NCBI GenBank assembly: GCA_963971535.1
Contig: OZ020589.1
Span: 49,638,692-49,702,691 of the forward strand
Length of the DNA: 64,000 bases
Origin: Notolepis coatsorum
Lineage: Eukaryota > Chordata > Actinopteri > Aulopiformes > Paralepididae
Reading direction: 5' to 3'
Shown here: in pieces, positions 5,458-63,039 of the stretch
Position numbering within the stretch: the stretch's first letter is position 1
Layout: each line of letters opens with the position of its first letter
Program-made: the position numbers and the translations under genes
The notes under the pieces: model-generated
The model's database searches: none
Told to the model about the DNA's origin: nothing
Seen by the model: only the letters and a program-made list of their open reading frames with translations

Positions 5458-7133
5458 CTATTTAGAGAAATCCCTCTTTGTGTGGTACAGAGCGAAGCAT
5501 TTGTCACGATGCAGGGGGACTTTGCACGATGTGCAAAAATATCTGGTCTCACTCCTGATGCCACGCCTACTGCAGACACGACATTTCCTACACGGTAGCT
5601 TTCTCTTCGGGGTGGCTTTGTATGCAACCATTACATGCTTCACAAAGCCACCCACTAATCTGCTCTGCGGGTCCCCCAGTGGGGCCCTAGGGTCGACACG
5701 CCCCACCTGCTCAGCCCCTGCCTCCTCCTCATCCCCACCCCCTGCCTCCTCCCCTGCCTCCTCCCCTGCCTCCGCCTCCGCCTCCATCTCCGCTGTCACC
5801 CCAGGAATCTTCTTCTCCTTACCGTCTGTGTAGGTCCGCGCCACAGCCCTGGTGAACCGGAAGAGGTTGGAGTAATGCCCTTGTGGGTGCTTTTTTTTGT
5901 ACAAGACAAACGCGTTGAAGATACATATTTGGATCAGATACATCACAAACTTTTTGGTCCACTTTCCAGTCTTACGTGTAACCGGATAGTACGATATATT
6001 TTGATCCAGCTGATCGACGCCGTTCATGAATTTATTGTACTCCAGGATTGATGTTGGCTTGAGCATCTCCACCCTCAGCGCTTTGCCCTTCTTCTGCTTC
6101 TTCCACACCATCGCCTTTTCCATAGTGTCCTCGTGGAAGCTGCTGATGGTCTTCACGATTCTCTTATCGCGCCATGCCACGATCAGGACCTCCTTGTTGT
6201 TGACCGCAATGCGCTCCCCCACACCGATGTCACGTTTGGTAATGTTCTTGATGATGGCTGGCTCGCCCCGGTGCTTCCTGAGGGTACCACAGACGTCGGT
6301 CCTCAACTGTCGGAGCCTGGCTGACATACGTACCGAGTTGTAGAAGTTGTCCATGTAGAGCGTATAGCCGGCCCCAGACAGACGTCCAAGCAGACCGACG
6401 ACCGTGTCCCCCAGGATCGAGCCTTCCCGACAATATGGCTTAAATGAAAAGCAATATCCTGTGCGTGATTCGCACAGGAAGTAGGACTTGATGCCATAGC
6501 GGGTGGGCTTGTTGGGGTTGTAGACCCGGAAGGTCAGGCGGCCTCGCCATGCCATCACCCCCTCGTCAATGGCGAGCTCGCGTTCAGGCTGGTACAGCTC
6601 CTTGCACCTCGTGTTTACATGGTCGACTACAGGGCGTACTTTGCACAATTTGTCTCTAACCTCCAGGGAAGTATTGTCCGCAAAGTGGAGGAATCGCCAG
6701 ATCAATTGGAACCTGTTGCGTGGCATGGTATCAGAGTAGTACGGTGTGTACATCATGTCGTCAGTGGTCCACATCTGGTCCACGCGAGGCTTCCGCAGGA
6801 CACTGCTAAGGAAATGGAGTCCGAGGAACTTCTTCAGCTCCTTCAATGTGAGGGGCTTCCAAAGCAGTGCCCTGCTACTGGTTAGCGTGGGGTCCAGCCG
6901 GGCAATGGACTGCTCAGCGTAGAGGTTGGACTGGGCAACAATAGAGTTCAGAAAAGCATCTGTCAGGAACAGATCCATCCATTTCGCAGGCCGGTAAGAT
7001 CTGAGTGCCTTGGCGTCCTGGAGCAACCCCGGTTGGGCTGTGAAGGGGATCCTTTGAGGCACCCAGCCCTCACGAGACCAGGCATTCTCCTCTTCCTGAC
7101 GGATCGCAGCCCTGCTCTTCGCTCCTCCACGAC
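5458..7133 (-). CDS. Last exon: catalytic core and Cys-rich C-terminus
   Basis: The acceptor AG is at 7135-7134, immediately before GTCGTGGAG; the stop is at 5458. There is no ATG at the start of the open frame, so it must be entered by splicing. The exon encodes about 558 residues holding all three catalytic aspartates. Near the C-terminus the pairs CRKC, CSRRG and CTSC followed by HRDKC form the cross-braced zinc-binding domain typical of piggyBac C-termini. The antisense open frame at 5480-5833 is a shadow of its acidic Ala/Gly linker. Confidence 0.9.
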
Positions 7134-31390: not shown

Positions 31391-32671
31391 ATGCAAAGGC
31401 GTAGTGTGTGTGCGGGAATTGACTTATTTCTTTGGAATCGGATATTCGGGGGAATTGATTCCAGTCAAGTGGAAGGCAAGTGGTGTGCGTTTTGCTTTCT
31501 ATCGCTGCAAAGTCAGACAAACACTCATGCCTAACTATATCCACACTTCATTAATTTAATAATTTGTAGGCTGACGGGGCGATGAAAGGCTATAATCCAT
31601 GGCGATAACTGGTCGCTAATTCTAATTTGAATGCATTAATTTCGAAAGTATGTATCCTGTGCTCTTCTCTGCGTCTGTAGCTCTCTCCCTTCGAGACTTG
31701 GCGTTACAATAGTGACCTCCAGCGAGCGCACCAAATCAAAAGGCACAGTGTGGCATGCACGCGCATGGACTAATCTACGGAGTAGGGTAGAGAGCGCAGT
31801 GCGGGAGTCTTCTGTCCGTCCAGTTGACAGGTGACAGCAGCAATATTAACTCTTCATTATGCGTGGTCATGTTTGATTTGGGATAGACTCATAAAAGTCA
31901 CGTGCTCGGTGTGGGCTCCCTAAACCACACGTGCAGCCCGCAAATCAAACCAAAATGCAAAATAGACCTGTGCGCTTTAGTGTCAGCAAGCCTATAGATT
32001 ACGCACGGAACACCGGCGCAATAGATACAGCCTGCATTAATACAACATAAAATAGTTATTCCGACCTGCCCCGTCAATAACTTACAGTCACCTGTGAGAT
32101 ATAGCCTTGAAAGAACAATCCATTTTCATTTCAAAATCTACGAATGATTTCATTACCCACCATATTTCCCCTGCTGCACCTCTCTCCTCTCCATCTCTCT
32201 TCTCTCCATTCTCTTTCATTTTCTTGTTAGGGGCGGAGGCGGAGCGGGTCCCTGCTCGTTTTTAATGTGAATAGCACGTGGTTGTTACAAGCCTCTAGAG
32301 CAGGACACAGCTGGGAGTGAGCTGGAGACGGGTGCAGTCGGGATGGGAGAGGACACGGTGCGCCGAGGAGGGCGCGTGCTTTCTAATGATGGAAATTCTA
32401 CGATGATGACCAGTCAAGACACATCTTTTTAGGAATACGGTCTTTTAAAAAAGGAAACCTCTAAAGGCTTGTCAGATCACAATCCTAACCTTTTTTCTTT
32501 TCAAAGGAAGGGCATGCATGTATGGAAGAAAGCAGGTGAGGAGAAGAAAAAAGACTATTTGATGTAAAAAGAAAATAAATTGTGACAGTTATTGCGAGAG
32601 AAACCTCACTATGGGGCATTTTTATAGATTTTAGATTATTTAAAAGTCTCACCCAGAGTAGAAGATTAAAA
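31391..32671 (+). promoter_or_regulatory. Upstream region and 5' UTR of adra2c
   Basis: Few repeats are seen here. It contains CACGTG E-boxes (near 31900 and 32276) and a GGGGCGGAGGCGGAGC GC-box-like stretch at about 32230. The receptor ATG has an AAAAATGG context. The transcription start cannot be fixed; the whole region is an inferred regulatory interval. Confidence 0.4.
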
Positions 32672-34000
32672 ATGGATTTTTTAAATATCTCCGGTTTAGA
32701 GGAGATCGAGGTGGGCAATAACTCCTCGAATTCCACCTCTGAAAGCCAGTATTCCCAGCTCGCTATCTGGGGTCTGGCAGGACTTGTCAGCTTTATCATC
32801 TTGTTTACAATAGTGGGGAATGTGTTGGTTGTTATTGCCGTTTTAACCAGCAGAGCTTTGAAGCCGCCTCAGAACCTCTTCTTGGTCTCTCTGGCCAGCG
32901 CCGACATCCTGGTGGCCACGCTGGTCATGCCCTTTTCTCTGGCAAATGAACTTATGGGCTACTGGTTTTTTGGCAAAGTTTGGTGTGACATCTACCTGGC
33001 GCTGGACGTTCTATTCTGTACCTCCTCCATCGTTCACCTGTGCGCCATTAGTTTGGACAGGTACTGGTCAGTGACGCAGGCGGTCGAATACAACTTAAAG
33101 AGGACCCCCCAACGGGTTAAAGGGATGATCGTGGTGGTGTGGCTGATCTCGGCCGTCATATCCTTCCCTCCTCTGATAACGATGGACAGGAGCAGCAGCC
33201 ACAGCGACCTCAGCCCCCAGTGTATGCTTAACGACGAGACCTGGTACATCCTTTACTCCAGTATTGGCTCATTCTTCGCCCCCTGCGTCATCATGATCCT
33301 GGTGTACATCCGGATCTACCAGGTGGCCAAGACTCGGACCAGAACCATGTCGGAGAAGAAGAGGGAGGTAGAGAATGGGCTGGACCAGCCTGAGCCCGGC
33401 GGCGGGTCGTTAAAGTGTAACGGTGGCGGCAGTATAAAGGACAGTGAGAACGGCCACTGCCAACAGCCGACTGTGGGATCTCCTCTACCCAACGAGCCCA
33501 AGCATCCGCAGACGGACCATGACGATGACTTTGAGGACAGCAGCTCGTCGGACGAGAAGCCCAAAAAGCATGCCTCCAAACATCGCCACGACGACAGGAA
33601 AGACAAGAAGTCTAGGCGGAAGAGCAGCTCCTCCTCTAAACACTCGAGCAGGAAGTCACGCGCCAGCTCCAAGTCCATGGAGCTGTTTGCCTCACGCCGG
33701 AAGCGGCGGAGCACCGTGAACCGGAAGAAGATATCTGCCGCTCGGGAGAAACGCTTCACGTTTGTCCTCGCCGTGGTTATGGGCGTCTTTGTGGTCTGTT
33801 GGTTCCCGTTCTTCTTCTCCTACAGCCTCTACGGGATCTGCCGGGAGCCCTGTGAGATCCCAATGCCACTGTTCAAGTTCTTCTTCTGGATTGGCTACTG
33901 TAACAGCTGTCTGAACCCGGCCATCTACACCATCTTCAACCAGGACTTCAGGAGAGCTTTCCAGAAGATCCTCTGTAAGACATGGAAGCGCTCCTTCTGA
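32672..34000 (+). CDS. adra2c: Alpha-2C adrenergic receptor, 442 aa, single exon
   Basis: Gi/o-coupled receptor for noradrenaline and adrenaline in the plasma membrane. Seven membrane segments are evident. N-glycosylation sites lie near residues 5, 16-17 and 20. Asp112 (3.32) binds the amine; Cys105/Cys184 form the loop disulphide; DRY is at 129-131; Ser196, Ser197 and Ser200 line helix 5; CWFP is at 376-379 and NPAIY at 415-419. The long third loop (about 221-357) has an acidic [12 protein letters not shown] phosphorylation-type stretch and a basic Ser-rich tract; Cys435 may be palmitoylated. SLYGICRE before helix 7 matches ADRA2C rather than 2A or 2B. The length is near human (462). The ATG at 32672 gives the family N-terminus; an in-frame extension to 32582 lacks an ATG. 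Confidence 0.93.
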
Positions 34001-46755: not shown

Positions 46756-46769
46756 TACCCAGATAGCAA

Positions 46770-47160
46770 AGAATGAGTGAATCAACGTTGAAATAGGGTT
46801 CAGCAGAAATATTGAATCTATGTTGAAGCCTGACATCTAAATTATATAGATCGTTGTCTATGACTTACACGTTGAATCAACGTTAGGTGTCAACCATAGC
46901 TGATACTATATCAATGTTGATTCAACCATCATCTAAATGGTAATCTACATGCACATTTTAGTTGATTTTTATATTGAATCAATGTTAGACATCAATGTTT
47001 ATTCAACCATAATCTAAATGGTAATCTACATGCACATTTTAGTTGATTTTATATTGAATCAATGTTAGACATCAATGTTTATTCAACCATAATCTAAATG
47101 GTACTCTACTTGTACATTTGTAACTTGTACATCTACTTGTAACTTGTAAAGTTAAGGAAT
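46770..47160. repeat. Left subterminal repeats of the 12.7-kb element
   Basis: Multiple GAATCAACGTTG or CAATGTTGATTCA words, and a ~79-bp direct repeat with CATAATCTAAATGGTAATCT and TATTGAATCAATGTTAGACA at about 46910-47105. Subterminal arrays of this kind bind element-encoded proteins in CACTA transposons; that role is inferred here. Confidence 0.75.
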
Positions 47161-47657
47161 CAATACTGATTAATGTACATTTTACATTAAAATATTGCTG
47201 CTGATATGTATACATCATAACATTACATGTTTTTTTCCTGCTGTTAAACACACTATTGTTAAATAAATAATAATAAAATTCTTATATGACCATATTTCCA
47301 AAAATGTGTGAACAAAAATGACAACATGGCTTTAGTATGACATTTTTTTTTCTAGGGTATCAGAACTTCCAGTGACTAAAACTTTTTACAAAAAACAAAT
47401 AACAGACCTTATAACAGGCTTTCATTAACAATATAGCCACTGCCAGAATAGTGACACACATATTGTGTGTGGTGAGCACACGCATTCATGCACAACGAAG
47501 ACAAGATTGCAATCATTTTAACTATAAATTTATGAGCTCAAAGTATGAGCTCACTACTGACTGAAATGTCCAACAAAAAGCATCAATTGTCAAATAATAT
47601 TGATCACATTAACTAGACTAGATGTTTGAGGAAATTAGAAAGGGAACAACAACTTAA
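47161..47657. other. Non-coding left arm of the element
   Basis: A/T-rich, no gene or clear repeat recognised. Confidence 0.5.
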
Positions 47658-48022
47658 CCCTTGTGTCTGATCAGATTCGTATTTGTTTGATAACTTTGCA
47701 GTGATGAGCCAACATAATATGTGGCATAATCTTTTAATTATCTTGTATTTTTTTTTTTACTCTTCATAAATTGTTTATTCCACTTCAGCCCGATCATAAC
47801 CACCACATATTATTTTTTTTGTCATATTTAACAACTCTTTTCAGAAAAGTGGGAGTATTTCATTACAAAAATAATATAAAAAATGGTTATGATCAGGGCT
47901 GAAGTTGAATAAAATATTTATGGAAAAGAAAGTGGGAAATTATTTCAACATAATCTTTTTATGGAGTTTTTCAATTTAGTCCCCTAATAAGAGTATAATA
48001 CTTTAGTTTTCAGACACAAGGG
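47658..48022. mobile_element. piggyBac-like MITE
   Basis: TTAA at 47654-47657 and 48023-48026; 13-bp ends CCCTTGTGTCTGA and TCAGACACAAGGG. Internally GATCATAACCACCAC and GTGGTTATGATC-type words are partly inverted. 365 bp, non-coding. Confidence 0.85.
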
Positions 48023-48239
48023 TTAAATAACAATGGCATAGGATTTGAATTTAAACACAGTGGAGCTTAGATGATCTACAGTTGTCCACGACTTATCCTC
48101 CAAGGCATCTGCTATATAATAATCTTCAGATTTACTTAAGTGTTATTAGTAGGTTACAGCAGTAAGCATTAGTTTGCTCAGTCAATTATGGCCAATTCGT
48201 TTTATATTGTTTAATACAGTTAAATAAATAGATAAATGA

Positions 48240-48340
48240 TTCCCCCCCCCCCCACTGTACCGAAAATAATACCGAACGTGTCTTCAAAACCGAGGTACGT
48301 ACCGAACCGTGGATTTTGTGTACCGTTACACCCCTAATGT
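48240..48340 (-). mobile_element. hAT-type terminal fragment
   Basis: On the minus strand reads TTAGGGGTGTAACGGTACAC, ACGGTTCGGTACGTACC and TCGGTATTATTTTCGGTAC, a common fish hAT terminus, truncated at a C-run. Confidence 0.5.
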
Positions 48341-48374
48341 TTCTATAACTCTCTCCCATATAACTCTCTCCCAT

Positions 48375-48940
48375 ACCCTTAACACCAACCGCTGAAGTGC
48401 CCTTGAGCAAGGCACTAAACCCCCAACTGCTCCAGTGGAGTTGCTCAGTGGCCAACAGTGTCAGACTGTGGTTGTACTGGGGCCTAACAAAATTAATAGT
48501 TGGTTTCAGGTTGGTTGTCAGTTTGGCCATGGGTAGGTAGGGAATTTATTTTATTTAATTTTTTTATTTTATTCTTTCCCACGGCGACTATGGATAGGGA
48601 ATTTCTTTATTTAATTAAAATGTTCACAACAACATGGATGCATGTACTCTGCCAGCATGTTTAATATCCATAATACTAAATGTTTGACTAAGATTTCTAT
48701 GAAACTTTATTAAAAAAAAAAAAAAATATATATATAATTTTTTCTAAAAACTCATAAAATATATTGGGTCGCACCTAAATCGGCAGGGTCGGTCAGCAAC
48801 CTGAAACCAACTATTAATTTTGTTAGGCCTGGGCAGCTCCCAGGTGTGAATGGAACTCTGTGAATGTGAAGCAGGGCGTAGCTGAAAAAGAGCATCTGTG
48901 CTCAGCGAACCTACCCTGGGTAAATAAAGGTTAAAATACA
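48375..48940 (+). mobile_element. SINE split by a MITE
   Basis: GTGCCCTTGAGCAAGGCACT to GGTTGTACTGGG on the left; CAGCTCCCAGGTGTGAATGG to GAACCTACCCTGGGTAAATA on the right, continuous once 48482-48828 and one CTGGG are removed. This is the 3' part of a common fish SINE. Confidence 0.75.
48482..48828. mobile_element. 347-bp MITE with ~32-bp inverted ends
   Basis: Ends GCCTAACAAAATTAATAGTT and its inverse continue for about 32 bp (to GGTTTCAGGTTG). Flanked by CTGGG at 48477-48481 and 48829-48833. Superfamily not determined. Confidence 0.85.
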
Positions 48941-48961
48941 AAATAAAAAAAATAAACACTG

Positions 48962-49306
48962 CAAGAACAGGCTGAAGCAGCATGTCATTCAAGTAGATGC
49001 CGTCCATGGAAGAACAGTGTCCAGGGTAATTCCTTGTACTGTATGAACCAGGGAAACAGTGTGCTGGGGTACCCCAAGTTTGACTCTGGTTCGCTTGACA
49101 ATTAAGTTTGGGTCACTTCGGTTCCAAGAACAGGCTGAAGCAGCATGTCATTCAAGTAGATGCCGTCCATGGAAGAACAGTGTCCATCAGGGTAATTCCT
49201 TGTACTGTATGAACCAGGGAAACAGTGTGTGCTGTGCTGTGCTGGGGTACCCTAAGTTTGACTCTGGTTCGCTTGACTTAAGTTTGGGTCACTTCGGTTC
49301 CTTGAG
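48962..49306. repeat. ~165-bp tandem duplication at the 3' end of the DUF4806 gene
   Basis: Two copies of a block with AACAGGCTGAAGCAGCATGT and GGTACCCCAAGTTTGACTCT/GGTACCCTAAGTTTGACTCT. The right copy overlaps the last codons and stop of the DUF4806 gene. Confidence 0.85.
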
Positions 49307-52300
49307 ATGCCTCCCTCCCGGTCTGGCGCATAACGAAGCCACTTCTTGACAGTTTCGCTGTAGTCCTGGTCGGTCAGCTTGGGGTCAAACTGTCGAGCAG
49401 CAGCTGATAGACACAAAAATAAAAAAGTGAGGAAGAGAGGTGAGATGATGTACGATGATAAGAGCACCCCTCACTTCACACGAGTGCGATTTTTTTTAAT
49501 CACTCAATTACTCACTCTGTAGGTCTACAGTAACAAGCTACAGTCAGCATCCAGTTAGACTGGACAGGAAAGAGAATTAAGCAATCGCCTAGCCTGACAC
49601 CATCTAGGCAATACAATGTGTATCCATGCACCTCTAAAGCTCACCAATTACGTTGTCCATTTCTTATAGGTTGCACTTTCATCACTTTATTCCAACATAA
49701 CACTTTTTTTTAAAGTTTTTGCAACAGCATAATTATATTCTGAATCACCAGCATCACCAGCATCACCACCTCACTACCTAAACTTAACCTATGAAGTAGT
49801 TTGCAGGGGAGGAAGCTCACCAAACATGCAGGCTTGTAGTGTGGTGTGCTTGAATGGCTTCTTGCTTTCTGAACAACGCTTGTCTTTCTTTCCAGCCCAG
49901 TTGAACCCACTGGCCAGGGCGTTGGTCATAGCAGTTTTCAACATCAGTCTGATCAGGTTCTCTGAATTGGTGCCTCCTACCAAAGCCAGGCGAGAAATCT
50001 AAATCAGAGAGAAGAAAATGAAGGCCCTGCGTTAGAAACAGCATAACGTTTATTTTATGAACACAGAGCAACCAACTTGTTTATACACACACTTTATGCA
50101 TGCACTGATATTCCAGCCCATGCCAGTCATTAGGTTTAACCACATTAACCCTCCTGTCCATATGTAAACGGTATATTTGAACAATTTCAAAATGTTTCAT
50201 AAATAGCAGATATACAAGCTCTAACACGTTTTGAACTAGAAAGTGCTAAACACATTTTTCCCCTGAACAAGACCACACTGAAACGATCTACATTTGATAA
50301 ATGAATGCAGTTCAATAAATTACCATCTTTTGACGGACTGATTGCTCCATCAGTAATGATTCTGCCTCATTGAAGTCTTGTTCACTGGCGATTGGCAGCT
50401 GGAAGGGGAGCATAGTGGTTGTGGTGGCCACCCCGTGTCCCCTGGTCCCACCAGATATGTTGCCCTCAGCCAACTCGGTCTTGATGAACTGCACATCTCT
50501 CGATAGATCCTTCACCACGACAAGTAATTCAGCCAGCATTGAATTATTCTTCTGGATGGTAAGGTCTTCAGAAGAAGAGTTAAAATCATTAAGTGAGAAA
50601 TAAAAATAAGCAGCAAATCACACGAGGAATTACACCATGTCCAATAGACTTGCCTTTCAGAAGCTGCCCGTCATCGCCGGCCATCTGTCTACGCTGTGAA
50701 ACACCAGATTGCCCTGAGCTGTGTCCTGACATCGCTGTAGAAACAAAATCATAGTTATATATTTCACTAGTTTGACTGCATTGGATCAAACTGGTGGTAG
50801 TTCCCTCTAAAATGGCATACCATTTTGTGCATGTTGTGAGAGACCAGGGGGACTGTAGTATTGCCCCGAGCTGCATCCCGACATCCCTGTAGAAACAAAT
50901 CATTATATTTAAAAATACAAAATCTGACTTGTCAGTCAAATGAACATACATGTCATAATCACTAACACCGGTTCCTGACAGGCAGCAAGCGAGCGAACTG
51001 GAGACGAAATCGCACACGACACTGTCCTGATATGACGCAGCGCGTGTCCGAGTGTGTGTTACCTCGATTCTCGACCAATAAAAAGTGTTTAGGGGCGGGA
51101 CTCGGCCGCGTAATCGCTCAACTAGAGACACAGCGAGCGAATATTTGAGGGGTGAACGACATCGCTGCTCAGTTCACTGTCGCTCGCGGCAGGTCAGGAT
51201 AGTCTGATTGAAACAAATACATTTTAATCACTTTTTCTCGCTCGCTCGTGTCGCTCTATGTCAGGAAGGGGTGTAAGGAGTTGTATCCCCGTCTCTCAAA
51301 ACACTGTTACTGAAAGAGTACTGTATCATACCACTACTTGCACTTTGTCGATCTTGCAGCTGCTGGACATGTGAGGCCTGCTGCTGCTGGTGATACTGAA
51401 CAATATCAAATCCTGGCATCTCGGCTGAAACACAGTAGGAAATACACAAAGTTATTAGCAAATGACGCTATTGTAATCCCCCATGTGAGAAAATGTTTGA
51501 TTTCCATTCAGCTGATTTCACGTGCACTGCCAAATACTACTTTAATAAAAATATCAAAGACAATGCGAGACAATACAGATATTTTAAACATGCCAGAATA
51601 TTATGTTATGAGATTGCTTGATAACTCACCATTATGTTGAGTTAGCGATTGCCGGTAGTTGCTAGTAACCAGATCTACAAAGGGGAAATGTAAAATAAGT
51701 TGCGACTCAAACATGGTGGAAATTGTGCTCAATATAAAAGCATTATGTACAACTACACATTTTTATTGTGACATTGCTTGCAAGTTGTGAAGGCTTTGAA
51801 TTTTTGTAGTGGGCTGGCATGCACATTGTAAACATGTATTCTGTTGCATGCATGATGCCAGCGACCTGCCAGCAAGCTCCTCACAAGAACACAGATATGG
51901 GTTCACTTACTGTTATTTGGATCAGAAGTCTGCAACGAATCTAAATAGCTGTAGATCATGCCACCATCCAAAGAATCTAAAAAAGGTAAGCCAGGGTGAG
52001 AATTGAAGATGCTACAAATCATGTTTAAACAGTCATCTAGTTGGCATTTTAACATGCATAGCAACATACCATTCATTGTAGGCTCTTGGCCAACAACTGG
52101 AGGGTTGACGGATCTTAGCGCCTTACGAGACCGGCTCGATTTTGGAGTCTGTCCTACAACATATTTTAGTTGGCATGTTATTCACAATGTATATATTTTG
52201 GGCCAACTATAGAATAACTGCAAGAAATGCAGAAGTCCAATCAAATTAAAATGCTCAATTTGTCGGTACATGGTCAGACTAATTTGTTTAACTGTTTATT

Positions 52301-53155
52301 ATTATTATTATTATTAACTGTAGCCATTTCCAAAGTGCCTATATAAAATAAATGCATTGCATCAATACCTGGGAAACCCACATCAGGTGCTTTGGCAAAA
52401 CGTTTTCTTTTGGCGTCGCCACTCGAGTCAGAGTCCGAGTGCACATACTGCTGATTTGGCCTAAAAAAAAGTATATATATACACACATATAAATAAATGT
52501 AGTTATGATACTACGTTTATTAGTCAAGGCTAAAGTCTGAATACATAGGCCCTCAGGCCACTGTGTGTTATCCTTTTAGCACTACTTGCAACTACAACAG
52601 CAGTGCCATTATTTACAACACCCTAGGGAGAGTTGTCCCTTTAACAAAGTGAACACTGTACCTGGATCTTCTTTTCTGGCGGAGATCTCCTTCGTCCTCA
52701 GATTCAATTTCAGAGGTTGGACACATAGTTGAGGTGTACTTGGTCTCTCGTTTTTTGGCCTCATCATGGGTCTCTGGAAAGAGCAGAGAGAAAATGACAA
52801 TTAACATATCTGCAGTCCAGTGTTTAACGAAAAAATATATGTACCTCTTATCATATGTGCATCGTCACAATTTGCGTCCTCACTTTTTGTGTATGTGTTG
52901 CACGAAATACTCACCACACGTAGTAAGCTCACGTACATCCTTATAGGTGATCCATTTATCATCTGGTTGCAGTCCATCTCGAAGGGCTTTTGTGAGCTTT
53001 ATGTGTTTAGGGGGCCATAACACAGTCTGGTCTTTAGCATTAAACCAGCTCTCTAGAACTACTGCTGTCCCACCATTTGGGAACTGTACAACTGACCACA
53101 GCACCACCTCACCATTCATCTTCAAAGGGCTGAAATGAGAATTTACGGTACTCAT
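49252..53155 (-). CDS. DUF4806 protein, 12-exon gene, 483 aa
   Basis: Exons (minus strand): 53155-52915, 52773-52662, 52460-52369, 52153-52070, 51976-51911, 51674-51630, 51424-51332, 50886-50821, 50734-50654, 50565-50324, 49998-49821, 49403-49252. They total 1452 nt with no internal stop; phases match at all 11 junctions. One donor is GC (AAAG|GCAAGT at 50654); the rest are GT-AG. The N-terminus (MSTVNSHFSPLK, WSVVQFPNGGTAVVLESWF, LWPP) is a domain often paired with DUF4806. A charged, Ser- and Gln-rich middle follows. The C-terminal DUF4806 has FNEAESLLMEQSVRQKM, ISRLALVGGTNSENLIRLML, ALASGFNWAGKK and TVKKWLRYAPDREGG. Function is unknown; an accessory DNA-binding role for the transposon is inferred. 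Confidence 0.82.
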
Positions 53156-53206
53156 AATGATCTCTCCTTACAAGCCATTCCCATACCGTCCTAAACTAAT
53201 ATAATC

Positions 53207-54178
53207 CAGCCTTATTTCTGTAGTCGTCGGTGTAGGTTATCCAGTGTACATATCCACACGGTCCTCGTCTAGGGCTCCTCGGGTGAAAGCGCCAGGGTAA
53301 GCAGCCCAGCCTGGATAAGCACACTAGCTGGTACGAGGAAACGTTGGTAATGCTGGTCACTGTAGAACGGTAGCCGCACGATACACTATACATAATAGAC
53401 TAATAATAATAGAATAGGTCGAACTCGACGATACAGCTTTAAACTCTGACACTTCAGCTATCAATTTGCACGCGGTCTCAAGGCTCTATTTTGGGGCAAA
53501 ACGGGCACACTTCACAGCACGTTGTATCATGGTGAAGGCTTCAACTTATTGGGGTAACTAACTGCTGTATCCACCTGAAACGTATTTATACGTAAGGTGA
53601 ATAATCTATAGTACCAGCCTTATTTCTGTCTGTCGTCGTCGGTGTAGGTTATCCAGTGTACATATCCACACGGTCCTCGTCTAGGGCTCCTCGGGTGAAA
53701 GCGCCAGGGTAAGCAGCCCAGCCTGGATAAGCACACTAGCTGGTACGAGGAAACGTTGGTAATGCTGGTCACTGTAGAACGGTAGCCGCACGATACACTA
53801 TACATAATAGACTAATAATAATAGAATAGGTCGAACTCGACGATACAGCTTTAAACTCTGACACTTCAGCTATCAATTTGCACGCGGTCTCAAGGCTCTA
53901 TTTTGGGGCAAAACGGGCACACTTCACAGCACGTTGTATCGTGGTGAAGGCTTCAACTTATTGGGGTAACTAACTGCTGTATCCACCTGAAACGTATTTA
54001 TACGTAAGGTGAATAATCTATAGTACCAGCCTTATTTCTGTCTGTAGTCGTCGGTGTAGGTTATCCAGTGTACATATCCACACGGTTCTCGTCTAGGGCT
54101 CCTCGGGTGAAAGCGCCTGGGTAAGCAGCCCAGCCTGGATAAGCACACTAGCTGGTACGAGGAAACGTTGGTAATTAG
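53207..54178 (-). promoter_or_regulatory. Tandemly duplicated promoter-like unit (412-bp period)
   Basis: 2.3 copies of a 412-bp unit directly upstream of the DUF4806 start codon. Each full copy contains, on the minus strand, CGTATAAATACG (TATAAATA; 53581-53592 and 53993-54004). The first lies about 430 bp before the ATG. Copies are nearly identical, so the duplication is recent. The third copy is cut off before the foldback element at 54210. Confidence 0.65.
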
Positions 54179-54209
54179 TCCGCACACATTGCATTTTTGA
54201 AGCATTTAA

Positions 54210-55611
54210 AGGAAAACTCCAACATTTTGTGAAATTAGCTTATTTGACATCTTCCCTGGAGTTATAAGAAGATACATACCTTTTTCGTCTCTCTGCATGC
54301 ATTGGGCTTAGGGAACGCCTGGACAGTTAGCCTAGCTTAACTTCATCACTGGAAGTGGGGCAGACATCTAACCTAGTTCACTACAGTCAGGAAATATACT
54401 CCAAATACAATCAAAATACAACTCCCAAACGTTCCCGTAAACATGTTGTGACCTGTGTATTTACCACGTCTCCCAGTCACACAAGTCTCCAAGTCACACA
54501 AGTCTCCCAGTCACACAAGTCTCCAAGTCACATGAGTCACACAAGTCTCCAAGTCACACAAGTCACACAAGTCCAAGTCTCCAAGTCACATGAGTCACAC
54601 AAGTCTCCAAGTCACACAAGTCACACAAGTCACACAAGTCACACAAGTCCAAGTCACACAAGTCTCCAAGTCACACAAGTCTCCAAGTCACACAAGTCTC
54701 CAAGTCACACAAGTCACACAAGTCACACAAGTCCAAGTCACACAAGTCACACAAGTCTCCAAGTCACACAAGTCACACAAGTCTCCAAGTCACACAAGTC
54801 TCCAAGTCACACAAGTCACACAAGTCACACAAGTCCAAGTCACACAAGTCTCCAAGTCACACAAGTCACACAAGTCACACAAGTCACACAAGTCCAAGTC
54901 ACACAAGTCTCCAAGTCACACAAGTCTCCAAGTCACACAAGTCTCCAAGTCACACAAGTCACACAAGTCACACAAGTCCAAGTCACACAAGTCTCCAAGT
55001 CACACAAGTCACACAAGTCACACAAGTCCAAGTCACACAAGTCCAAGTCTCCAAGTCACACAAGTCTCCAAGTCACACAAGTCACACAAGTCACACAAGT
55101 CACACAAGTCCAAGTCACACAAGTCTCCAAGTCACACAAGTCTCCAAGTCACACAAGTCTCCAAGTCACACAAGTCACACAAGTCACACAAGTCCAAGTC
55201 ACACAAGTCACACAAGTCTCCAAGTCACACAAGTCTCCAAGTCACACAAGTCACACAAGTCCAAGTCACACAAGTCACACAAGTCTCCAAGTCACAAAAG
55301 TCTCCCAGTCACACGAGACTCATGTGACTGGGAGACTCGTGTGACTTGTGTGACTGGGAGACGGGGTAAACACACAGGTCACAACATGTTTACAGGAACG
55401 TTTGGGAGTTGTATTTGGAGTATATTTCCTGACTGTAGTGAACTAGGCTAGATGTCTGCCCCACTTCCAGTGATGAAGTTAAGCTAGGCTAACGGTCCAG
55501 GCGTTCCCTAAGCCCAAAGCATGCAGAGAGACGAAAAAGGTATGCATCTTCTTGTCCAACTCCAGGGAAGATGTTAAATAAGCTAATTTCACAAAATGTT
55601 GGAGTTTTCCT
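54210..55611. mobile_element. TTAA-flanked foldback element with a VNTR core
   Basis: TTAA at 54206-54209 and 55612-55615; ends AGGAAAACTCCAACATTTTG and inverse. Inverted arms of about 270-290 bp share TTAGCTTATTTGACATCTTC and CACTTCCAGTGATGAAG-type words. The core is a pure tandem array (54468-55318). Related to the elements at 60266 and 62409, which lack the array. Confidence 0.9.
54468..55318. repeat. Array of three short monomers (9, 8 and 6 bp)
   Basis: Built almost wholly from AGTCACACA, AGTCTCCA and AGTCCA in varied order. Larger blocks recur, for example a run of three or four 9-mers followed by the 6-mer. ORFs of 329 and 245 aa here (SHTS, KSHK, VTQV) are repeat translation. Confidence 0.95.
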
Positions 55612-55769
55612 TTAAGCGTTTCAATTGGCCAGCCAAACATGTTATCTGTGTACATGTAATATTGTACTAATTGTGTATTTATTAATGAGGTAAGTTATGC
55701 CCCGAAATCCGACGTTAGAGTCAGTGTGTCAATATAGTTACTGCACTTTAGCTTTGTAGGGCAGTATGG

Positions 55770-57875
55770 TTATGCTGTTAAATGAAGTAGTGGTATTGCA
55801 ATGGCACCATCTCCGTCTGGAGAGAGAAGACATTTGCGCTTGATATAGCGAAGTTTACCTATCCCTATATCTTCTTGCAAGCCACTGACCTTGTATGTAC
55901 CAATGTATGATGATTCACAGGGATACATGTAGTATGGCTGTTTGTGTCTGTACTTTGTGTAAATTATATATACCTCTTCCTCTGATTTAAGAATATTCTC
56001 TACTAATGCAAATCCATCTCCAACCTCAATACAATTGTCTCCTTTCTTTGTGGACAAAGTAAACCGATGAGTGGAGACCTTCCTGTACTGTTGTGAAGAA
56101 GTAAACTGTGGGGGGACAGGCCCATCAGTGTGAATATTACGCAAAATTGGATCATCTGTGGGACATGGGGATCCAACATGTGGAATTTCAGACAACCTTT
56201 TCACTACCTGTTGTAGAGGCTGATGTGGCTTGCGTAGAAGATGCTTAATTTGTCCAAGATAGTTCTCAAAAGGGAATCCTGAGATATTATCTAGAGTGCC
56301 AAACTTCCTGTATTCCTCAGCCAAATGAATAAGCTGGTGTACATTGTACACAATTTCACCTCTTCCATACACTGTCCCAAAGTGTTCAACAAAAGAAACC
56401 ATCAACTTGTGCGCAAAGGCCAACATTTCCTCAGAAATACTAGGGGACAGCAACAAGTACATTCCAACAGAAAACAACATGAAGTTGTCATACAGCTCAC
56501 TGGGGAGGGAATCCTTCAAAACAACAGAACCCCAATACAACATGAAGGATCGCAACTCAGTAGCTTTCCAGCGATCTAACTCTGACAGTTCCCTTGGTTT
56601 ACGGTTAAATTCACAAGGCATGTAGGGACGTAGCTTTAGCAGTTTACCTGAAATGGCTTGTACAGTTTTGGAAGGGACCCTTGTTGCCAAATTCTTCCCC
56701 TTTAACCATATATTAAGCAGTTTCCTTGTAACTCCGAGACAACAGAGATGCATGTAATCAGTTGGAAACATAGAAACCATCTTAACTAAACCTGTTAAAG
56801 GGCTCGTCCCATTGTGATGTGCCTCATCAACCATGTCTGAGAAACTGGAGTCTGTCCTAAGTCTGACTTTTGTTTCAGGATATGTCATTTTATTTCTCCA
56901 TACACCCTCCTGAAAACACTTGTCACAACCAGAATAGCCATTAAATGCCTTGGTCTGCTTAATATAAGCTCTAGCCGGGGCATCACAAATGAAAGAAGAA
57001 ATCTGTACATCAAATTGCTTGTCATTATAAATAATGCCATTAGACAGTACATTCTGAAGATCTTTGACAAACTGCTCTAGGTACTCAAAAACACTCTTTG
57101 GCTTGCTTAGACCACAAAAAATGCCAACAACAAATGGGGACTTTGTGTAGTCACATTTGAGACTTCCAAGTATGGGCCAAAACTGAAGTTTAGAACTTTT
57201 GAATAAAGGTAAACCATCTATATTAAACTGTAAATTAAGAGTTGTCAGAGTTGCCGGTAAAATCAAACATGCCAACCGTGAAAGCACCCCTTTGACTAAA
57301 CCAAAATGATAGTATTCTCCCCCTTCAATCTTAGTGGTAGGCACATGTTTTTGTGTTCCTAGCAATGTTCTTCCATCTTTAGGAAGGGTGGGGTGAAACA
57401 TCTTCAAAAAGGACAGCAAAGATGATAGTGCAACCAGAGAGACTGAATAGGATGTTGCCCAATATTTTAAACTTGTCATGAGGAAATCTTCATTATGCTC
57501 ATCACTGTCAAAGACATGTTCAGGTTCAATTTCGTCATCCCCAGCTATACTTTCAAAATGTGCATTTGACTCACCTGGTGAGTCAATCTTTTCACTTTGA
57601 TCACTGATAGTTAGTGGTCTGTTTAGTGGCAAGTCTGAAGTTGATAAATCTAGTGGCAAGTCTGATCTAGTTGTTAAATCTAGTGGCAAGTCTGTCTTTG
57701 GTAAATCGAGCAGGCACTCAGTATAGGCTGTGACAGGATCTGTGTTCTCTAAAGAGTGATGGTTTGTCCTTGAATTAGCAGCAACAATTAACTTATAATC
57801 AGTGAGGATAGCCTGCTCTGTCTCTCTCACTAATTTGTTGACTCTACGTCTTTTAGCCCGAGAATAAGATGACAT
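55770..57875 (-). CDS. tnp2-like transposase, 701 aa, single exon
   Basis: ATG at 57875, stop at 55770, uninterrupted. The start MSSYSRAKRRRVNKLV is basic. Short LPLDL repeats and an acidic stretch follow. The core has LTTLNLQFNIDGLPLFKSSK and QFWPILG, then SSFICDAPARAYIKQTKAF, NGYSGCDKCFQEGVW, DYMHLCCLGVTRKLL and VHQLIHLAEEYRKFG. These blocks, including the two conserved Asp positions in NIDGLP and CDAPA and the C-x2-C, are those of the tnp2/CACTA-type transposases found in animal and fungal elements. It would cut the CCCAGATAGC ends. A DUF4806 gene follows on the same strand. Family assignment is firm; the exact clade is not. Confidence 0.85.
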   Translation of the reverse strand: MSSYSRAKRRRVNKLVRETEQAILTDYKLIVAANSRTNHHSLENTDPVTAYTECLLDLPKTDLPLDLTTRSDLPLDLSTSDLPLNRPLTISDQSEKIDSPGESNAHFESIAGDDEIEPEHVFDSDEHNEDFLMTSLKYWATSYSVSLVALSSLLSFLKMFHPTLPKDGRTLLGTQKHVPTTKIEGGEYYHFGLVKGVLSRLACLILPATLTTLNLQFNIDGLPLFKSSKLQFWPILGSLKCDYTKSPFVVGIFCGLSKPKSVFEYLEQFVKDLQNVLSNGIIYNDKQFDVQISSFICDAPARAYIKQTKAFNGYSGCDKCFQEGVWRNKMTYPETKVRLRTDSSFSDMVDEAHHNGTSPLTGLVKMVSMFPTDYMHLCCLGVTRKLLNIWLKGKNLATRVPSKTVQAISGKLLKLRPYMPCEFNRKPRELSELDRWKATELRSFMLYWGSVVLKDSLPSELYDNFMLFSVGMYLLLSPSISEEMLAFAHKLMVSFVEHFGTVYGRGEIVYNVHQLIHLAEEYRKFGTLDNISGFPFENYLGQIKHLLRKPHQPLQQVVKRLSEIPHVGSPCPTDDPILRNIHTDGPVPPQFTSSQQYRKVSTHRFTLSTKKGDNCIEVGDGFALVENILKSEEEVYIIYTKYRHKQPYYMYPCESSYIGTYKVSGLQEDIGIGKLRYIKRKCLLSPDGDGAIAIPLLHLTA

Positions 57876-58450
57876 AGTGATGAGGTGCTGTAGTCAATGT
57901 AATGGTACATACATTGTGCTATTTACTTGGCTAGAACAGGTCTTTGCTTCAATTGCTGCAACGTGCGGCTTCTTGAAACTGGTACGTGATTCTGGAAAAA
58001 GAAAGAAAAAAGGGGGGAGGGTCGACATTAATGTGCTGCATTGCAATGTGCAGGGTGAAACGCTTGCATAATTCTACATTTTGATCAATATCAAGAGAGT
58101 CCATTATTATATTATTGTTATATTGTTCATTAGAAAATACCATGTATATAACCAAACGTCTAACTATATAGTCAATGTAATGGTACATAAATTGTGGTAT
58201 TTACTTGGCTAGAACAATTAAGTCTCAAACAGCCTGCAAACTACCTGGCGTTCTATCGCCATGCTCTAAGACAAACTCTAACCTTAACCAACTTAGAAAG
58301 AGTGCAAGGGGAGATGAAGCATATAGCGATATAAACATAGTCATAGCATCAAATTAGTATTTAGATAAGCCACAGAAAAAAATCACGTTATAAAAATAAG
58401 CAGTTTCTAAGAAAAAACGATTTGTTATGTGAAGCGCTTTATCAACATGG
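57876..58450 (-). other. 5' leader of the transposase gene, with a local duplication
   Basis: On the minus strand a TTTCTTTTTCCAG acceptor (near 57993) may end a 5'-UTR intron. GTTCTAGCCAAGTAAATA...CATTACATTGACTA occurs twice (57884-57945 and 58148-58218). No protein-coding signal. Confidence 0.4.
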
Positions 58451-58463
58451 GCGCCGCCATTTT
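58448..58463 (-). promoter_or_regulatory. YY1-like motif upstream of the transposase
   Basis: CAAAATGGCGGCGCCC on the minus strand (plus GGGCGCCGCCATTTTG). CAAAATGGCGGC is the YY1 core often found at transcription starts of genes and retroelements. It lies about 580 bp upstream of the transposase ATG, in a locally GC-rich patch. Inferred from motif only. Confidence 0.45.
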
Positions 58464-59159
58464 GTTTGGTGACATCACCGTCGCGGTGCATTTAGCTAGC
58501 TGGCTACCTAGCCGCAGCCGGGATTCAAAGCCAACTAACCGGCTAACCCAGCTCGCTAAATACTGCATGTAGCTAGCAGAACTGTAAAATTAGTTTGAAC
58601 AGCCATACAAAAAGAAACACGCGGTCCCGTTGTTGTCTGGTAGGCAACGTTGCATTTACGGATCCACGTGTTTACTAGGCCAGCTAGCGCGTGCTTCCTT
58701 GACTACTTCCTGTTCACCCAATAAGCATGCTTTTGATTGGCTGAGTCGCACAACGTCATTCAGTACCAACGCACGCAATTGGACCACGCAATTTCTAATC
58801 GTTGGCGCTATAATAAATACATCGAAATAACTTAAACAACCGTACGATTCCACTTGCACACTCTCCAGAGTTATATTAAGCACACGCTACGAATATTCAT
58901 GAATATTTATCTTAGTTGACGTATATATATATTTACCTACCAAACTGCAGCATATCACATGCACAACGCCGTCAAGATCCACTGGTGCACACTCACAATA
59001 ACGTTATTTTTCACAGAACACAGTTAAGATAAAAGTAATATAGCCAAATCTTACTGTAAAGCACTCAGTAGAATCAAATCCGGGGGAACCAGACGTGCTG
59101 TTCTGAACAGCAGTTCACATCGAGTGCTCAGCTGCATGCTGGGACGTACGTCTGTTTAA
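58464..59159. other. Right arm of the element, upstream of the transposase
   Basis: Contains GCTAGCTGGCTACCTAGC-like words, CCAAT/ATTGG boxes near 58718-58740, and a TATATATATATA stretch near 58924-58936. No gene. Confidence 0.5.
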
Positions 59160-59412
59160 ATTGGGGGGGGATTCGGATCGGTCCAACGTAATGACGACAA
59201 ACAGCATACGTTGAACAGCATCCGTTGATTCAACATTTATTAGATATTGGCATTTCAATCATTAAAATGCAACCACAAAACAATATTGATTCAATGATAT
59301 GTTTTCAACATTAGTCAATTGCTTTAGCGGTTAATGGGTGATTCAACATCAATCGTCGACCTTAACCAAAAATCAAGCATTTTGACCATAAATCAACATT
59401 GAATTAACACCT
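59160..59412. repeat. Right subterminal repeats of the 12.7-kb element
   Basis: Words such as TTGATTCAACATTTATTAGA, ATATTGATTCAATGA, GATTCAACATCAAT and AAATCAACATTGAATTAAC, mirroring those at the left end. Confidence 0.7.
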
Positions 59413-59427
59413 TTTGCTATCTGGGTA

Positions 59428-60261
59428 TGCTCTTACATCATGCAGGTACAGACGTACAAGATATATTCGCTACATTGCCCGACGGGGGAGGACCGACGGA
59501 CTATGCTAAAGCTGTTAAGGCGCTAAATGACTACTTTGTGCCGCAGGTAAACACTGCGTTTGCGCGCCAGGCTTTCTACCAAGTATCACAGAAACCAGGT
59601 GAAACTGTACAGCAGTTTGTGACGAGGCTTCGTCAGGCTGCCAGAGACTGTGCATTTGCTGCGGACATTAGCAATCAAATAAGGGATGCGGTGCTGAGCA
59701 GGGGCACGTCGGACTATGTACGGAGAAAGTTACTGGAGGAACCACAACTTATGCTGCCGTGTGCGTTGGAAATAGCGTCGCAGTGTGAAAGAGTGGAGCT
59801 GCAAATGGCGGCGATGAAGATGAGTGACGGCGCTGAGGGGAGAGAGACGGTGAATCGTGTCTTCAAGAAAGAGGGCCAATTCCAGAAGTGGAAACCATCG
59901 CCTCGTGGAGATCGTGGAGAAGGAAAAGAGAAATCCAAATCCGATAAAGTGTGCTACAGATGTGGACACGGGGATCATCTGGCCAATGATTCTGCATGCC
60001 CTGCAAAAGGACAGACATGCAGGAAGTGTAATGGAAAAGGCCATTATGCCAAAGTCTGTAAATCCAAAGGTAAAGAAAGACAGACTGTGAGATGTGTTGA
60101 AACTGAGGACCAGAACACTGGGAACAGAGACTATGCATTTGTGGTTGAAGATGATTCAAATACTGAGAGGGTCACATTTGATGTTGGGGGAGTAGATCTA
60201 CTTATGTTAATCGATTCAGGTGCATCAAGTAACATTGTAGATGAGAACACATGGAAAATGC
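59428..60261 (+). pseudogene. Second gypsy: rest of gag and start of protease
   Basis: Continues the Gag begun at 46602: LLHHAGTDVQDIF, NDYFVPQVNTAFARQAFYQ and KPGETVQQFVTRLRQAARDC. Two zinc knuckles follow (CYRCGHGDHLANDSAC and CRKCNGKGHYAKVC), then the aspartic protease start with LMLIDSGASSNIVDE. It is cut at WKML by a palindromic element at 60266. No LTR-complete copy remains. Confidence 0.85.
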
Positions 60262-60265
60262 TTAA

Positions 60266-60886
60266 AGGCGAACTCCAACATTTTGGGAAATTAGCTTATT
60301 TAACATCTTCCCTGGAGTTAGACAAGAAGATACATACCTTTTTTGTCTCTGTGCGTGCATTTTAGCTTTGCGAATAGACGCTCCGTTAGCATAGCTTAGC
60401 TTCATCACTGGAAGTGAGGCAGGACAGTAGCCTTACAGTGCCTTACAGTGTATTGCAAGGTCTGACATTGACCAAACTTGATATGCATGACCTTGGTGGG
60501 TTCTAGGTCAACTCCTGAAAAGGGGGTCAATGTCAGACTTTGCAATCAAAAGTTAGGGGGCTAATAACCCTTGCCATAATTTCAGTGCACCCCCTAACTT
60601 TTGATTGCAAGGTCTGACATTGACCCCCTTTTCAGGAGTTGACCTAGAGCCCACCAAGGTCATGCATATCAAATTTGGTCAATTTCAGACCTTGCAATAC
60701 ACTGTAAGGCACTGTAAGGCTACTGTCCTGCCTCACTTCCAGTGATGAAGCTAAGCTATGCTAACGGAGCGTCTATTCCCAAAGCTAAAATGCACGCACA
60801 GAGACAAAAAAGGTATGTATCTTCTTGTCTAACTCCAGGGAAGATGTTAAATAAGCTAATTTCCCAAAATGTTGGAGTTCCCCTTT
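60266..60886. mobile_element. 621-bp palindromic TTAA element
   Basis: TTAA at 60262-60265 and 60887-60890; ends AGGCGAACTCCAACATTTTG and the inverse. Almost the whole element is an inverted repeat (arms near 300 bp). The centre contains CCTTGCCATAATTTCAGTGC. Near-identical to 62409-63027. Confidence 0.9.
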
Positions 60887-62352: not shown

Positions 62353-62408
62353 AACTAGAGACAGTTACAATATAACATTTAGATTAATTAACCCAGTTAA
62401 TGCCTTAA

Positions 62409-63027
62409 AGGGGAACTCCAACATTTTGGGAAATTAGCTTATTTAACATCTTCCCTGGAGTTAGACAAGAAGATACATACCTTTTTTGTCTCTGTGCGTG
62501 CATTTTAGCTTTGGGAATAGACGCTCCGTTAGCATAGCTTAGCTTCATCACTGGAAGTGAGGCAGGACAGTAGCCTTACAGTGCCTTACAGTGTATTGCA
62601 AGGTCTGACATTGACCAAATTTGACATGCATGACCTTGGTGGGCTCTAGGTCAACTCCTGAAAAGGGGGTCAATGTCAGACCTTGCAATCAAAAGTTAGG
62701 GGGCGCACTGAAATTATGGCAAGGGTTATTAGCCCCCTAACTTTTGATTGCAAAGTCTGACATTGACCCCCTTTTCAGGAGTTGACCTAGAGCCCACCAA
62801 GGTCATGCATATCAAGTTTGGTCAATGTCAGACCTTGCAATACACTGTAAGGCACTGTAAGGCTACTGTCCTGCCTCACTTCCAGTGATGAAGCTAAGCT
62901 ATGCTAACGGAGCGTCTATTCCCAAAGCTAAAATGCACGCACAGAGACAAAAAAGGTATGTATCTTCTTGTCTAACTCCAGGGAAGATGTTAAATAAGCT
63001 AATTTCCCAAAATGTTGGAGTTCCCCT
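62409..63027. mobile_element. 619-bp palindromic TTAA element
   Basis: TTAA at 62405-62408 and 63028-63031; ends AGGGGAACTCCAACATTTTG and inverse. Same family as 60266-60886, with the small central asymmetric part in the opposite orientation. Confidence 0.9.
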
Positions 63028-63039
63028 TTAAGAGAGAGA

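Follow-up and report, generated by a model that had tools for sequence, protein, structure and literature searches.

Plant CACTA/En-Spm transposons encode a transposase and a DNA-binding helper protein and carry subterminal repeats, with ends that begin with CACTA or CACTG. Their target duplication is 3 bp long (PMC12730594). Animal elements named TRC ("Transposon Related to CACTA") were assigned to the CACTA superfamily in 2006, and the available text of that paper describes ends starting with CCC, such as CCCAGTCAAC in Aedes and CCCTAGTAGCACC... in Tribolium, duplications of 2 bp, relatives of Transposase_21 in animals including Danio, and a second open reading frame (ORF) likened to TNPA (PMC1636069). 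For SmTRC1, the element of Schistosoma mansoni, the second protein was argued to act like TNPA, and according to the same text it has no conserved relative in other TRC elements (PMC1636069). Among fungal elements of the CMCT clade, ESTA is described with TA duplications and PlavakaA with 2-bp duplications, in transposases with the order D...D...CxxC...HxxxH...E (PMC12730594, available text). The domain family DUF4806 (also PF16064 or IPR032071) is cited as a subtype of the DNA-binding BEN domain in the part of PMC11075544 available, where BEN domains are predicted to recruit chromatin modifiers and the subtype assignment is second-hand, taken from another paper. Neither a tie between DUF4806 and a transposon nor a link between CACTA elements and BEN domains was found in the openly accessible literature searched, and DUF4806 was not found by name in the available text of PMC1636069.

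The element described here lies in the window, i.e., the whole 64,000-nucleotide stretch of Notolepis coatsorum DNA that was analysed, and occupies 12,668 bp (positions 46758-59425), as defined by exact 13-bp inverted ends and TA flanks. By sequence match, the left terminal inverted repeat, CCCAGATAGCAAA, is located at 46758..46770 on the plus strand and its complement at 59413..59425 on the minus strand, each occurring once in the window, and TA is found outside both (46756..46757 and 59426..59427). The two arms are identical over exactly 13 bp and then diverge. An earlier note on this DNA had proposed inverted non-CACTA ends of this length enclosing two intact genes on the minus strand, and both proposals were confirmed, as the ends enclose a transposase of 701 amino acids (aa) and a second gene of 12 exons. 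Between the genes are found a 412-bp tandem repeat of 2.3 copies (53217..54175) and a foldback sequence with a 17-bp minisatellite (54197..55624) that is taken as nested, both considered non-essential. Visual inspection of the open frames on either side indicates that the element interrupts the gag frame of an LTR retroelement. When the flanks were joined, the resulting 118-bp sequence aligned by BLAST at 40 scored places in the genome, of 112 candidates, and the three places that were read showed an uninterrupted target with a single TA and a one-base length difference near the junction. Because of this one-base difference, an exact-length pattern of the joined flank had no match in the genome. 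The empty sites with their single TA therefore identify the element of the window as an insertion, and not as a chance pair of motifs.

Genome-wide, the 13-mer CCCAGATAGCAAA was found in 1152 and 1171 exact copies on the two strands (2,323 in the 3.42-Gb genome), compared with 41 and 38 for the reversed control. The first 100 places, all on one contig, were listed, and 74 of these could be grouped into 37 convergent pairs spaced by less than 40 kb, leaving 26 unpaired; neighbours within the same distance in another orientation were limited to one divergent and one same-direction case. Spacing in the 37 pairs among the matches listed ranged from 4.4 to 35.8 kb (median 13.0 kb), and by their end sequences 31 belong to the family of the window copy, hereafter family A, and 6 to a second one, family B. 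The expected multi-copy, mobile family with shared ends thus exists. The two outer base pairs were identical in 36 of the 37 pairs, whereas mismatched partners agree in 12.7%, and agreement over 3 bp was observed in none of the 37. The duplicated dinucleotides were TA (10), AT (6), AA (5), TT (4), AG (3), CA (2), and TG (2), with GT, CT, GA, and AC found once each. From flanks that are identical over 2 bp but varied in sequence it follows that the target duplication has a length of 2 bp and no set sequence. The TA duplication that had been claimed holds for the window copy; across copies that share its ends, however, TA accounts for only 10 of 37 pairs, and a fixed TA duplication was rejected.

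The transposase is encoded by a single exon at 55770..57875 on the minus strand, with the stop codon at 55770-55772, within an open frame of 707 codons (55773-57893) whose ATG is at 57875. Of 1217 candidates in the genome, 63 were scored, each 99-100% identical in an alignment that covers 706 or all 707 aa; 61 of them contain no stop, and the other two contain one each. The 30 best-scoring copies, which represent the youngest copies and not the whole family, differ on average by 0.23% (range 0.05-0.52%). Their ratio of nonsynonymous to synonymous differences was 30:55 (neutral, about 2.5:1), a figure biased by the ranking of copies by protein score and not evidence of selection. At up to 2 mismatches, the transposase motif of family A occurs at 365 places genome-wide. 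The suggestion that the element has been active recently, based on two open genes, is supported by these closely similar copies.

Assignment of the transposase was less direct. No Pfam match up to E 10 was obtained for the transposases of family A or of a third family, C, and the only Pfam signal for that of family B was a sub-threshold DUF4218 (E 0.013). The PF02992 (Transposase_21) profile likewise had no match up to E 10 in A, B, or C; it scores 76 bits at one other locus in the genome, which showed no significant similarity to the transposase of the element (best E 0.6). The published motif I of Transposase_21 (PMC1636069) was found in all three families, whereas none of 5000 shuffles made from each sequence contained it. 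In family A, the candidate catalytic residues are D220, D298, and E537, with CDKC at 317 and HQLIH at 513. The spacing of the two aspartates is 78, 78, and 77 in A, B, and C, respectively; CDKC is present in all three; and CxxC and HxxxH, followed by the final E, stand between the second D and E in the order of the CMCT group. The eumetazoan box [LVI]-D-x-[LM]-H-x3-L-G is matched strictly in B, and A and C differ from it at the first residue only. A single-sequence structure model was unusable (mean pLDDT 34.8), the PDB gave no match to the transposase sequence or to a profile of the three families, and a search for relatives found none in plasmids and one pattern match in viral contigs that was not confirmed. 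The proposal of a tnp2-like transposase is therefore borne out by published motifs, though without a PF02992 match.

The resemblance to TRC elements, as judged from published motifs and descriptions (PMC1636069, available text), extends to ends that start with CCC, duplications of 2 bp, and, as in SmTRC1, insertions in LTR elements for which empty sites are known, as well as to motif I, the D-x-[LM]-H-x3-L-G box, a spacing of about 80 between the aspartates, CxxC, a second ORF downstream of the transposase, and many copies with internal deletions. However, SmTRC1 is about 4.5 kb long with ends of 54 bp, whereas the element here has 12-13 kb and ends of 13 bp, and the second protein of SmTRC1 (PrA/PrB) is not detectably conserved, in contrast to the conserved multi-exon DUF4806 gene found here (12 exons in A). 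The fungal ESTA and Plavaka share the order of catalytic-type motifs, and the TA duplications of ESTA and 2-bp duplications of PlavakaA are like those of the element, but Plavaka ends (TGT...ACA or CATCA...TGATG) are unlike its own, a comparison made by description only (PMC12730594, available text). The element would thus appear to work like TRC elements and to share their motifs, although in the absence of a PF02992 match it is not a profile-proven member. The idea that its non-CACTA ends mark a distinct animal lineage is consequently not new, since TRC elements were published in 2006 (PMC1636069). The apparent novelty lies in the second gene of a TRC-like element, which is of the DUF4806 type and is conserved.

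This second gene (gene 2) spans 49252..53155 on the minus strand and comprises 12 exons encoding 483 aa, with 11 introns, ten of them GT-AG and one GC-AG (GC donor). The DUF4806 domain begins in exon 10 (50324..50565) and has its main part in exon 11 (49821..49998), followed by exon 12 with the stop codon (49252..49403), all on the minus strand. When the domain and exon 12 of family A were submitted alone, Pfam returned DUF4806 at 38.4 bits (E 1.6e-9; cut-off 25), and the domain of family B, also submitted alone, gave 35.5 bits, so that in both families it matches the domain of animal DUF4806 (PF16064) proteins above the curated cut-off; the gene here differs from those in sitting inside a transposon. 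The whole 483-aa protein of family A gave no DUF4806 match in Pfam, and a negative result with the long protein of gene 2 is therefore not to be trusted. A six-frame scan of the genome with PF16064 found nothing, as did the same scan of control genomes, which in our reading is explained by introns that split the domain. The shared N-terminal exon containing W-P-P (no Pfam match for this region in A, B, or C) has an in-frame ATG directly preceded by AG in all three families, and the translation of gene 2 therefore probably starts at 53119, behind a splice acceptor, rather than at 53155. The probable true first coding exon is accordingly 52915-53119 on the minus strand, and the 12-exon gene model stands in its exons and domain, with this correction to its first coding exon. 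Such an acceptor suggests that, as in Spm, a leader lying upstream may be spliced to gene 2; measured from the transposase-side end, compatible candidate donors lie at 372 and 430 bp in A and at 373 bp in B, alongside other donor-like sites.

The association of the two genes was examined in the three families. In family B, one locus read whole is 12.0 kb long and has the same 13-bp ends and an intact transposase frame of 714 codons, 63.6% identical to that of A by tblastn and 65% in a multiple alignment. Its gene-2 exons begin about 80 bp past the transposase and follow in the same order, with 41-69% identity to A. Family C has a transposase frame of 687 codons with 44% identity to A, and its ends were not found. 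Default tblastn did not find gene 2 in the 9 kb beyond this transposase; a more sensitive search of a 15.5-kb stretch located the main DUF4806 exon about 9 kb downstream, with acceptor and donor (E 4e-6), and a W-P-P exon at the same locus (E 0.02-0.07). The fragment of this DUF4806 exon scored 15 bits in Pfam, below the cut-off of 25. At a second C locus, the stretch fetched contained the DUF4806 exon in antisense copies only, together with the W-P-P exon. A, B, and C share the splice position at which exon 11 begins.

Counts across the genome agree with these loci. For family A, 100 exact places each were listed for the transposase and exon 11, of overall totals of 365 and 598 with up to 2 mismatches allowed; across contigs C1, C2, and C4, with 54 transposase and 96 exon places (46 and 4 on later contigs being left out), exon 11 lies downstream on the same strand at no fewer than 44 of the 54 transposase sites listed, and controls on the other strand or side gave 0. 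For family B (137 transposase and 140 exon places in total), an exon was found downstream of at least 77 of the 100 transposase sites listed, compared with 96 of 100 exons listed, with one control case. In family C, 27 of the 39 transposases were compared with the 100 exons listed, of 173, and an exon lies downstream in sense at a minimum of 21 of the 27, in antisense near 24, and upstream of none. Transposase sites that lack a gene-2 site downstream therefore amount to at most 10 of the 54 in family A, 23 of the 100 in B, and 6 of the 27 in C. Within the 37 end pairs, where motifs were counted as exact matches only and some recorded as absent may exist with mismatches, 8 hold both motifs of family A, 13 the gene-2 motif only, 16 neither (6 of which are family B), and none the transposase motif only. 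The two genes thus usually occur together in three families, with DUF4806 in the accessory position as had been supposed, and the contrary case, that they never share the same ends, is contradicted by the 8 pairs with both. Between A and B, the transposase has a dN/dS of 0.19 (dS 1.3), and in gene 2 the ratio is 0.17 over exons 10-12 (dS 1.9) and 0.41 in exon 1 (dS 0.9); the dS values are near saturation, but judging from these ratios both genes have clearly been kept by purifying selection.

Subterminal repeats had also been proposed and were confirmed at both ends. The left 400 bp of the window copy (46758..47157) contains 8 TTGATTCAAC-like sites and the right 400 bp (59026..59425) contains 5, counted at up to one mismatch on both strands, whereas shuffled sequences have on average 0.06 and 0.05 (at most 2) and the interior has one; palindromes are therefore concentrated at the ends. 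Within the left region, 2.6 copies of an 80-bp unit occupy 46910-47119. In family B, 5 TTGATTCAAC-like sites were found at the gene-2 end and none at the transposase end or in the interior, and the counts with TTGAATCAAC were 9, 1, and 0 at these three positions. Eight ends fetched from the genome contained 0-9 palindrome sites, two of the eight having 0 or 1. The palindromic core TTGA-W-TCAA (TTGAWTCAA) would suit a symmetric DNA-binding protein. Separately, text matches for CCCAGATAGCA in the literature include a paper about American shad that could concern this kind of sequence or be unrelated to it.

These results bear on several ways in which the element and its second gene could be understood. 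Its general plan, with a tnp2-type transposase, a second protein, and subterminal repeats, is that of plant-type CACTA/EnSpm elements, and the available text of the 2006 paper puts TRC itself in the CACTA superfamily (PMC1636069), so that an ordinary member with drifted ends could be imagined. However, the two defining features fail, the ends being CCC and the duplications 2 bp, and the transposase lacks the PF02992 match that is found at a dissimilar locus elsewhere in the genome (76 bits; best E 0.6), which makes this explanation extremely improbable. Membership of the plant type was rejected on the ends and on the duplication length, as 0 of 37 pairs agree over 3 bp. Scarcely more credible is a passenger role for gene 2, in which an ancestral element would have picked up a host gene on a single occasion and kept it since. 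Three families with transposases of 43-65% identity retain the gene order and orientation, A, B, and C have the same splice position where exon 11 begins, and dN/dS between A and B is 0.17 for exons 10-12, all of which argues against this role, even though DUF4806 is abundant in some animals, with 69 domains in one Hydra species and 54 in another (PMC7642931, available text), and is enriched among species-specific gene families of a beetle (PMC13270666, available text).

A regulatory role deserves more weight, although it is still unlikely. Gene 2 would then encode a chromatin regulator of the BEN type that protects the element against silencing or represses competitors, and any binding of this protein at the ends would set expression and not synapsis. 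The description of DUF4806 as a BEN subtype and the predicted recruitment of chromatin modifiers by BEN domains (PMC11075544, available text) are in line with such a role, as are the 13 of 37 end pairs with an exact gene-2 motif and no exact transposase motif and the excess of gene-2 over transposase motifs (598 and 365 at up to 2 mismatches), which would be expected if gene 2 were valuable alone. However, family A carries palindromes at both ends, as for an end-binding factor, and copies that lack the transposase could be products of internal deletion that move in trans.

We consider it likely, with good though not full confidence, that the element is a recently active, probably autonomous cut-and-paste transposon of the TRC lineage, whose DUF4806 protein would be TNPA-like and bind the subterminal palindromes. 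In the proposed mechanism, a DDE-type transposase would cut at the 13-bp CCC...GGG ends, a chemistry suggested by its motifs, and insertion would proceed with a staggered 2-bp duplication. The multi-exon gene 2 would produce a DUF4806 (BEN-type) protein, most likely binding the TTGAWTCAA palindromes, that may help to join the ends or control the promoter, by analogy with TNPA in plant Spm, and a shared leader exon could be spliced alternatively to either gene. A broader proposal, that DUF4806 was at origin the TNPA-like partner of TRC/CACTA transposases reading TTGAWTCAA, and that the many DUF4806 genes annotated in fish, insects, and Hydra are largely genes of transposons or host genes derived from these, is offered tentatively, as one that somewhat more probably fails than holds.

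For the DUF4806 family, an orphan domain, the element provides a concrete setting and a testable job, and TRC elements gain a conserved candidate partner protein, of the sort that the 2006 paper, in its available text, sought without success (PMC1636069). A young-looking two-gene transposon of a vertebrate would be usable for mobility assays, and the "gene expansions" of DUF4806 in animal genomes may be counts of transposons.

The motif for exon 11 of the DUF4806 gene (gene 2) was found more often than that of the transposase, with genome-wide totals of 598 and 365, respectively, in a pattern search allowing up to 2 mismatches. Among the matches listed, 13 of the 37 convergent pairs of 13-bp ends on one contig (C1) carried the gene-2 motif without the transposase motif, absence here meaning the lack of an exact match, and 8 of the 37 carried both. 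The sole PF02992 match reported in the genome, where 150 of 253 candidates were scored, lies at G000:C6:153135334-153135705 (L115) with 76 bits; this locus had no significant similarity to the family A transposase by tblastn.

The region between the transposase and gene 2 of the window element contains a 412-bp tandem repeat of 2.3 copies (53217-54175), a piece 82% similar to which is located past gene 2 in the related family B, and a foldback sequence (54197-55624) that includes a minisatellite of 17-bp units. Arms related to this foldback occur elsewhere in the window, near 60256-60433, 60717-60886, 62404-62576, and 62860-63032. A minisatellite frame of similar look was also observed at one family C locus. 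Other genes in the window include a single-frame alpha-2A adrenergic receptor-like gene on the plus strand (32669-33997; PDB chains E 2e-141, 7tm_1), which points to a vertebrate host, and a long open frame on the minus strand (5464-7050) matching DDE_Tnp_1_7 and zf-Tnp_2, which is presumably a piggyBac-type transposase.

In family C, an antisense DUF4806 exon, in one or two copies, was identified 1.6-9.4 kb past the transposase motif in 24 of the 27 copies compared among the matches listed, and a sense DUF4806 exon was also present in 21 of these 27. This inverted arrangement of DUF4806 exons could be a source of double-stranded RNA.
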